Notes under the pieces: model-generated
What the model saw: only the letters and a program-made list of their open reading frames with translations
The model's database searches: none
Told to the model about the DNA's origin: nothing
IMG/VR virus record: IMGVR_UViG_3300021963_000332
Span: 1 to 37,102 of that record
Length of the DNA stretch: 37,102 bases
Reading direction: 5' to 3' (one strand)
Source of the DNA: a virus
Shown here: positions 7,442-10,126 of the stretch, in pieces
Layout: every line of letters begins with the position of its first letter
How positions within the stretch are numbered: position 1 is the stretch's first letter
Translations under genes and position numbers: made by a program

Positions 7442-7508
7442 GGACTCATCAGGTACCACACATATGGTACTACACGAAGCGCACACAACTACACTCCGTG
7501 TTTCGTCC
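7442..7508 (-). ncRNA. Hammerhead ribozyme, type II (copy B)
   Basis: Minus-strand order: GGAC, GAAA, stem III of nine pairs (7500-7492 with 7481-7473, two G-U), UA cleavage site, stem I GUACC/GGUAC with an eight-base loop, CUGAUGA, GUCC. The cleavage base is A rather than C, which hammerheads allow. Cleavage is predicted between 7471 and 7470. It lies between the 56-residue gene (stop 12 bases upstream) and the 46-residue gene. Confidence 0.94.
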
Positions 7509-7520
7509 TAAAACTGGGGA

Positions 7521-7691
7521 CTAAACAGTAGCCTCCACGAATTGTGGATGCTCAATCTTGTAAGCATCGCCACGCAGTGACTCCGCCAAAATGAGTTGCC
7601 CACTCCACGGCAAAATGCCGACCACGAAATAGCACTCACCCTCCAAGTGAAGCCCCTTGCGGTAACGCACCACATCACCAATCGCAAACAT
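7521..7691 (-). CDS. Small hypothetical protein (56 residues) between hammerheads B and C
   Basis: This 56-codon ORF starts at ATG 7691 behind a GGAGG hairpin and hammerhead copy C. The sequence (FAIGDVVRYRKGLHLEGECYF) looks like a small beta-barrel, possibly SH3- or KOW-like, but this is only an impression. It is flanked by self-cleaving elements on both sides, so after processing it would be a monocistronic message. A longer ORF to 8026 in the same frame would start inside the upstream gene and run through the ribozyme, and is rejected. Confidence 0.72.
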   Translation of the reverse strand: MFAIGDVVRYRKGLHLEGECYFVVGILPWSGQLILAESLRGDAYKIEHPQFVEATV

Positions 7692-7709
7692 AAACACCTC
7701 CAGTGTTTA
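7691..7709 (-). promoter_or_regulatory. Shine-Dalgarno in palindromic hairpin (56-residue gene)
   Basis: The minus strand reads UAAACAC-UGGAG-GUGUUUA, seven pairs, nearly the same as the element at 7411-7431. Together with the ribozyme it forms a duplicated leader cassette. Confidence 0.8.
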
Positions 7710-7720
7710 CAAGCCGTTCT

Positions 7721-7784
7721 GGACTCATCAGATACCGTAACACGGTATGACATCGGGAGCAACGACACTCCCGATGTTTCGTCC
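7721..7784 (-). ncRNA. Hammerhead ribozyme, type II (copy C)
   Basis: Minus-strand order: GGAC, GAAA, stem III CAUCGGGAG/CUCCCGAUG (nine pairs), UC cleavage site, stem I AUACCGU/ACGGUAU (seven pairs, loop GUU), CUGAUGA, GUCC. Every pair is Watson-Crick. Cleavage is predicted between 7749 and 7748. It begins ten bases after the stop of the CobT-like gene and ends 29 bases before ATG 7691. Confidence 0.97.
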
Positions 7785-7787
7785 TGA

Positions 7788-7806
7788 GGTGTTCTTACAG
7801 AACACC
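7788..7806 (-). other. Hairpin enclosing stop codon of CobT-like gene
   Basis: The minus strand reads GGUGUUCU-GUA-AGAACACC, an eight-bp hairpin with the UAA stop at its tip. It sits directly 5' of hammerhead C and has no U-tract, so it is not a standard terminator. Confidence 0.7.
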
Positions 7807-8658
7807 CAACCCTGACAGTGTGGACATCACATACTCCACTGGGTTCTTGATTATGTCGCCCTTGCCAGATTGCAACAGTTCGCACTGCACATCGGCACCG
7901 ACACGCTCCGCACACTCCAACGCCGAAGGATACCCATAGCCACCCTGAATCAGGCGCTTGGCAGGCTCCCACTCCGTCAATTCTAGGCAGGAAAACTGGA
8001 TGCGACGCAACATTGATGGGTGGCATAATGCGAACATCAGGTTATTGATGTCCAACATCTGTTGGGAGTCGTGCAATTTCACAAGTGAAGTGTGAACCTT
8101 GCCCCTGCGTTCGTTTACGCCAGTGTCGTTCGTCGGGAATTCGGCATAAACCTCAACACCCATCCCCAATTTGTGGACTGCATCCACCAAAGCACACACC
8201 GTGACACCACGACGAATTATGTCGTCGGGACGAACTGATGCCGATGCCGAACCGTTCACGATGATACGCACCACACGACCCATCCGCTCGGCGGGTTCGG
8301 GGACGAAGTCAATCATACACTCAGGCTCACCAGTGAGGAATTTGCCGATGTCTACGACACTGCCAGTGAAGTCGTAGCGAGTCTGAAACGCAGACTCAAT
8401 ACGGCTCGCCAATTGCGACTCCAATTCCGTGAACAATTTCTCCACTTGGGGACGAATCTCATCGTACCCTTGGTGCCCCAAAGACACTGCCTCACGAAGT
8501 GAATCAGTCTTGCCTGCCCAATCCTCGCCACGGAATTTGTCCGATGACTTGGGTGTTGGGTTGGCACCTGCATAATCCAAGCACTCCGCCAGTGAATCGT
8601 ATTCCTCCAGCCAAAGGCTGGTACCGCATAACGCCTTGAGTTTCTTACTGACTCGCAT
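7795..8658 (-). CDS. CobT-like/DUF7192-type partner of AAA+ ATPase
   Basis: This is a 287-residue protein. The segment VVRIIVNGSASASVRPDDI followed by GVTVCALVDAVHKLGMGVEVYAEF resembles a von Willebrand A-like core with the metal-site loop altered (S-A-S-A-S). Such proteins accompany MoxR/CobS-type AAA+ ATPases in bacteria (CobS-CobT) and in many phages. The gene directly follows the AAA+ gene, which supports a two-part chaperone or remodelling complex of unknown target. Start ATG 8658 has AGGAGG in a seven-bp hairpin. The family name is from pattern memory and needs a profile search. Confidence 0.65.
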   Translation of the reverse strand: MRVSKKLKALCGTSLWLEEYDSLAECLDYAGANPTPKSSDKFRGEDWAGKTDSLREAVSLGHQGYDEIRPQVEKLFTELESQLASRIESAFQTRYDFTGSVVDIGKFLTGEPECMIDFVPEPAERMGRVVRIIVNGSASASVRPDDIIRRGVTVCALVDAVHKLGMGVEVYAEFPTNDTGVNERRGKVHTSLVKLHDSQQMLDINNLMFALCHPSMLRRIQFSCLELTEWEPAKRLIQGGYGYPSALECAERVGADVQCELLQSGKGDIIKNPVEYVMSTLSGLGVL

Positions 8659-8680: not shown

Positions 8681-8690
8681 GGTTGTGTGT

Positions 8691-8718
8691 CCCATCGGGG
8701 CAGAATTGCCCCGATGGG
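8691..8718 (-). promoter_or_regulatory. Strong leader hairpin upstream of CobT-like gene
   Basis: The minus strand reads CCCAUCGGGGC-(AAUUCU)-GCCCCGAUGGG, 11 perfect pairs. It takes the place a hammerhead occupies in the neighbouring leaders, but the CUGAUGA and GAAA core elements are absent. It is followed by an A/C-rich linker and the hairpin ribosome-binding site. Confidence 0.75.
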
Positions 8719-8735
8719 TATTACGGTATTCGGTG
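8717..8735. repeat. GGTATT repeat shared with leader at 3606
   Basis: The plus strand reads GGTATTACGGTATTCGGTG. It matches 3606-3624 at 17 of 19 positions. Both copies lie between a stable hairpin and other leader parts of minus-strand genes that lack a hammerhead. Confidence 0.7.
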
Positions 8736-10066: not shown

Positions 10067-10126
10067 GGACTCATCAGACACCGTGAAACGGTGTGACATT
10101 GGGGCAATAGCCCCAATGTTTCGTCC
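10067..10126 (-). ncRNA. Hammerhead ribozyme, type II (copy D)
   Basis: Minus-strand order: GGAC, GAAA, stem III CAUUGGGGC/GCCCCAAUG (nine pairs, loop UAUU), UC cleavage site, stem I ACACCGU/ACGGUGU (seven pairs, loop UUC), CUGAUGA, GUCC. All pairs are Watson-Crick and the core is complete. Cleavage is predicted between 10095 and 10094. It ends 33 bases before the AAA+ ATPase start and begins nine bases after the stop of 10136-10480. Confidence 0.97.

Follow-up and report, generated by a model that had tools for sequence, protein, structure and literature searches.

The element at positions 7784 to 7721 on the minus strand of the window, by which we mean the whole analysed stretch of a virus record (37,102 bases), is a type II hammerhead ribozyme whose sequence predicts self-cleavage between 7749 and 7748. 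We think it likely that, without help from an enzyme, it cuts the polycistronic mRNA of the minus-strand gene module at an intergenic site during transcription, with protection of the new ends and separate expression of the genes on either side. Its parts are the following:

7781-7784 with 7721-7724, minus strand: stem II, 4 bp
7777-7780, minus strand: core segment GAAA
7768-7776 with 7751-7759, minus strand: stem III, 9 perfect bp, with 2 extra wobble pairs possible
7749-7750, minus strand: UC, predicted cleavage between 7749 and 7748
7742-7748 with 7732-7738, minus strand: stem I, 7 Watson-Crick bp
7725-7731, minus strand: core segment CUGAUGA

Read as minus-strand RNA, the first half is GGAC-GAAA-CATCGGGAG[UGUCGUUG]CUCCCGAUG-UC^ and the second half AUACCGU[GUU]ACGGUAU-CUGAUGA-GUCC, where ^ is the predicted cleavage site after UC; the DNA of the same strand reads GGAC-GAAA-CATCGGGAG-TGTCGTTG-CTCCCGATG-TC-ATACCGT-GTT-ACGGTAT-CTGATGA-GTCC. 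The complete set of core bases (C3 U4 G5 A6 N7 G8 A9, G12 A13 A14 A15.1, U16.1 H17) is present here and in each of the other three copies in the window, the core segments being CUGAUGA, GAAA and UC, with UA instead of UC in one of them (copy D). Stems I and III are closed by loops and stem II is open, in the minus-strand order GGAC-GAAA-III-UC-I-CUGAUGA-GUCC, as in type II. An earlier note on this DNA had described a complete type II core with a nine-bp stem III and a seven-bp stem I, cleaved at 7749/7748, and had left out the strand. The core pattern, a covariance model and orthologues all bear out the class, both stem lengths are found on the minus strand, and the cleavage position agrees with the one predicted here.

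A structure finder covering all three permutations returned four elements in the window, all of type II. Every one is on the minus strand, and the plus strand has none:

10067-10126, minus strand: hammerhead before the CobS-like AAA+ gene 10033-8741, 53.1 bits
7721-7784, minus strand: the hammerhead described here, before the 56-aa gene 7691-7521, 51.8 bits, E 5.8e-14
7442-7508, minus strand: hammerhead copy D with UA at the cleavage site, before the 46-aa gene 7412-7272, 48.4 bits
6676-6742, minus strand: hammerhead before the 203-aa DUF3846 gene 6645-6034, 59.6 bits

The scores are those of a covariance model (R1) made from 33 ribozymes of other phages, with the window's own phage group left out, and they supply the covariance-model search that the earlier note had proposed as a check. 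The 33 training sequences were chosen by a finder that demands pairing, and their own perfect pairing is thus no evidence. The model matches precisely the four copies (E 6e-13 to 2e-16), with no further match in the window up to E = 10, and a copy whose stems all reach at least 4 bp was absent from 30 Markov-shuffled windows. A chance origin is ruled out by these shuffles and E-values. Rfam scans of the window, run at the gathering threshold and with E relaxed to 5, reported none of the four copies, and a search of 391 bases with a limit of E = 10 also missed the two copies at 7442-7784; copy 7784-7721 lies below the 37-bit gathering cut-off of Hammerhead_II (RF02276), a model that matches 2 of the many copies in another viral locus (L113). 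The identification therefore rests on the core pattern, our covariance model and the orthologues, and the miss is a limit of the Rfam model and no defining feature of hammerheads. The R1 model has a limit of its own, since it gave no match in Pseudomonas phage PaP3, for which a core-variant hammerhead has been reported, and so does not cover core variants. A tRNA search of the window found none.

The ribozyme starts 10 nt past the stop of one gene and ends 29 nt ahead of the ATG of the next, and two further hairpins lie at its downstream side:

7795-8658, minus strand: upstream gene, 287 aa, DUF7192 / phrog_1909, ATG start at 8658
7711-7726, minus strand: tail hairpin, GAGUC (7726-7722) with GGCUU (7715-7711), predicted in the downstream cleavage product
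7691-7709, minus strand: Shine-Dalgarno hairpin UAAACAC/GUGUUUA, presenting GGAGG (7701-7697) directly before the AUG at 7691
7521-7691, minus strand: downstream gene, 56 aa, without a family match, ATG at 7691

The earlier note had placed the element between a "CobT-like" gene and a 56-residue gene. The position is right. CobT models gave no match to the 287-aa gene, which matches Pfam DUF7192 / phrog_1909 instead; the label is unproven and is suggested just by the preceding gene, an AAA+ ATPase (phrog_249) with a weak CobS match. A Shine-Dalgarno sequence within a small hairpin (e.g. CAACCTAGGAGGTTG) is found ahead of many genes in the window, with or without a ribozyme (minus-strand starts 10480, 10033, 8658, 7691, 7412, 6645, 4564, 3573 and 36263, plus-strand start 20257), and by eye the flanking stem changes in relatives with complementarity kept. 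Another hairpin, CCCATCGGGGCAATTCTGCCCCGATGGG, lies at about 8690-8720 on the minus strand between the ATPase and DUF7192 genes; in its counterpart in L293-L296 the stem varies, the pairing is kept and the loop is CAATCCTG. By its capsid gene the phage, which comes from environmental DNA, belongs to an abundant group of uncultured phages with at least 600 contigs; among named records MW202803 has the closest capsid (42.5% protein identity). The window DNA itself showed no similarity to named phages.

By tracing the DUF7192 gene into related contigs we located the equivalent slot in other phages. In six of them (proteins 42-89% identical) a type II hammerhead begins within about 20 bases of the DUF7192 stop. 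When the window copy and these six are aligned (alignment A1), 13 of the 19 pairs have changed at both partners, standard pairs make up 98.5% of the cells in the 19 pairs, against 28-45% when the partner is slid, and the covariation score is 0.727 against 0.207 for shuffles. The double changes fall on 13 of the 15 pairs of stems I and III; stem II is invariant in the seven orthologues and shows double changes at 2 of its 4 pairs across the subclass, in a set selected for pairing. All three helices thus covary, and the covariation with copy D inside one genome, which had been claimed earlier, checks out and is strongly added to by the orthologous slots of six other phages.

The same layout is common in viral genomes. 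Viral contigs were scanned with core patterns in sets of at least 119 and at least 120 stretches, and 366 distinct ribozymes with enough flank, among the matches listed, were used to study placement; as the patterns match the window ribozyme, this set describes the subclass and not all hammerheads. Among these 366 listed matches, the stop of an open frame of at least 50 codons lies within -15 to +30 bases upstream in 86%, a Shine-Dalgarno and start follow within 60 bases downstream in 88%, and the full order of stop, ribozyme, Shine-Dalgarno and start is found in 74%, compared with 4.6% of random positions. Loci may hold up to 11 copies, and in 78 of the 79 multi-copy loci among the matches listed all copies are on one strand. 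The same core pattern gave 45 matches in 84,980 cellular genomes, about 18 loci scoring well; the rest score far lower and mostly failed the stem filter, which is therefore needed. Together, the viral layout and the few cellular loci indicate that the element belongs mostly to viral operons. Two of the cellular contigs, from Phycicoccus jejuensis and Streptomyces iakyrus (L409 and L414), carry three hammerheads each with the same scores and spacing, which could be a shared prophage or contamination.

From fold, conservation and placement we infer the following course of events. The ribozyme would cut the mRNA during transcription between the DUF7192 and 56-aa genes, leaving the upstream mRNA with a stem III hairpin and a 2',3'-cyclic phosphate at its new end, and the downstream mRNA with a 5'-OH on a blunt stem I hairpin, after which come the tail hairpin and the Shine-Dalgarno hairpin. 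In type II both stems beside the scissile bond are closed, so that neither hairpin is split by the cut: stem III stays whole at the 3' end of one product, and stem I lies flush with the 5' end of the other. Common bacterial decay enzymes are generally hindered by hairpins, a 5'-OH and a 2',3'-cyclic phosphate at RNA ends, and closed hairpins at all the new ends should shield these from exonucleases and from decay that depends on the 5' end. The four copies together would split the module into messages of one or a few genes, and such separate messages would let neighbouring genes be expressed at different levels. Computed minimum-energy folds are consistent with this order of events: each of the four precursors folds as the hammerhead, and each of the four downstream products as three hairpins in succession, namely stem I, a tail hairpin in which AGUC of stem II takes part, and the Shine-Dalgarno hairpin. 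Fast hammerheads usually need a loop-loop or pseudoknot contact. In the four window copies no clear contact of either kind was identified, which counts against the proposed cutting.

The 3' tail could add a further step: once the core has done its work, the tail would refold onto it, and the cut could not be undone. The tail hairpin 7711-7726 and the hammerhead exclude one another, because they share stem II and the core bases G8 and A9. Across the subclass, 63 of 317 ribozymes among the matches listed have NUCAG in the tail close to stem II, where about 6 are expected from shuffled tails, and the base before UCAG pairs with core position 7, the sole free core position (U-A in 34, C-G in 25 and four others, i.e. 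Watson-Crick in 59 of 63 among the matches listed). Pairing of CUGAN with N'UCAG destroys the core and must consequently be an alternative fold. The association between tail base and position 7 has a Fisher p of 1.6e-15 in a larger set, although the sequences are related and the value overstates their independence; paired changes of the two are also seen within single genomes (L121, L108 and L069). Over all ribozymes N7 and the first tail base are weakly associated, and the strong association is specific to tails with UCAG. In the form that the window's family has, GAGUC with GACUY, the count is 45 of 254 among the matches listed, compared with 11 for shuffled tails and with 32.5 for permuted tails (sd 2.6, maximum 40). 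The hairpin is always paired in the seven orthologues and varies just by single, pairing-neutral changes, so that for the window copy a switch is suggested at most. These observations suggest that the tail, which is often core-complementary in the subclass, refolds after cleavage, and hint weakly at the same in the window's family.

A pseudoknot between loop I and the tail was also considered, and the subclass gives it no clear support. Among the matches listed, pairing of at least 4 bp is found in 19.9% against 18.7% with permuted tails, which in this unbiased set is no excess, and in an earlier, smaller set the average pairing score was slightly above permuted. For the window copy, inspection by eye allows just UGUU/AACG, one of its pairs being a wobble. 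About 40% of hammerheads likely use such a pseudoknot of at least 4 bp, which is common in the type II consensus and not required for membership (Perreault et al. 2011, PMC3088659). We give roughly even chances to the full proposal of a built-in refolding switch, in which the tail pairing (CUGAN/N'UCAG, or GAGUC/GACUY in the window) would form after the cut or would end the period in which cutting can occur; cleavage would then run in one direction, a row of hairpins would cap the downstream mRNA, and the switch would mark a distinct type II subclass that lacks the loop I pseudoknot.

Since the tail can pair with core or stem II and, across the subclass, changes in step with position 7, there are two exclusive folds. 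They could also mean that an active hammerhead is itself regulated, either in its cleavage or in downstream translation, by ion level, a protein or an antisense RNA, the tail hairpin then being its off state. The Shine-Dalgarno inside a hairpin would fit such control, and salt-tuned control has been proposed for a halovirus hammerhead (PMC3088659). We find this unlikely, however, as the hammerhead is wholly transcribed ahead of the tail, the precursors fold as hammerheads at minimum energy with the tail included, no ligand-binding or other conserved extra domain was seen, and the genes downstream differ between relatives.

Ribozymes are present in some of the related phages and absent from others. 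At least one copy is found in 15 of 27 related records, which gives no rate since several were chosen for having one, and L304 has the same genes without any ribozyme between them. The ribozyme is therefore not essential, a point against the proposed role, and with slots that are ribozyme-free or hold other hairpins it is a replaceable intergenic cassette, kept by paired changes where present. That non-ribozyme hairpins occupy the same slot in other relatives would also fit a cleavage-dead relic, or a structural hairpin pair kept at transcript ends or for stability. This is very improbable, because a relic should lose core bases, and in the four window copies and the six orthologues the core is intact, even though the stem bases have been exchanged in pairs.

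Several other structures were seen in the slot after DUF7192. In L298, L299, L302, L303, L452-L458 and L266, which have no hammerhead there, it is occupied by a pair of hairpins without a match in Rfam, whose loops are constant (GTGCCTACGC in the first and CGGGGGYTGGACAATAAAACTCCAGCC in the second); a pseudoknot could form between the first loop, CCUAC, and a GUAGG or GUGGG further downstream. L300, L301, L306, L307 and L311 have a long hairpin of the type GGTGTAACA...TGTTACACC. Past its DUF7192 gene, L311 also has an element resembling a hammerhead in which GAAU replaces GAAA, AA replaces UH (so that A15.1-U16.1 has become U-A) and stem II has U-U at its base; it could be a variant or a relic.

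Least probable of all is that pairs of ribozymes jointly excise the RNA between them and circularise or religate it, as in viroids or retrozymes: single genes do lie between copies (the 56-aa gene between 7784-7721 and 7508-7442) and hammerheads elsewhere make RNA circles (PMC7761336), but the copies differ in sequence and flank different genes, and spliced or circular products of such hammerheads have been sought and none found (PMC3088659).

Cutting of a polycistronic message agrees with what is known of related elements. Perreault et al. (2011, PMC3088659) described type II hammerheads in bacteria, in clusters flanking prophage genes, of which three tandem sets were cleaved in vitro and that of A. 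tumefaciens also in E. coli, and proposed that they process long phage transcripts; the window ribozyme thus belongs to that kind. The subclass shares with those hammerheads and RF02276 the core, the open stem II, the tandem copies flanking phage genes and the proposed role, and differs in its 4-bp stem II, its short loop I of 3-6 nt, a loop I to tail pseudoknot no more frequent than by chance, and its core-complementary tail. The halovirus HF1/HF2 hammerhead (HHphage) likewise lies a few bases upstream of the start codon of an early gene in a lytic virus, and an in vivo 5' end has been reported near its cleavage site; it differs in a core variant discussed as salt-responsive and in its archaeal host, whereas the window has four copies per genome with a canonical core (PMC3088659). 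MW202803 (Caudoviricetes sp., Manatee Spring podophage) has the same subclass in a region with DUF7192-like and ATPase genes, but upstream of both and not directly after the DUF7192-like gene. This type II hammerhead, at 1949-2004 of MW202803.1 (48 bits), is unannotated and overlapped by an annotated hypothetical gene. In the open-access literature, with most subscription papers outside the search, we found no report of ribozymes of this phage group or of a core-complementary tail. Clustered phage type II hammerheads have thus been known since 2011, and the core-complementary tail looks undescribed.

Standard RNA annotation misses this hammerhead subclass, and its common layout in hundreds of viral copies makes the mRNA-processing hypothesis directly testable. 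The core-complementary tail, if true, would be a simple natural means for a reversible ribozyme to act once.
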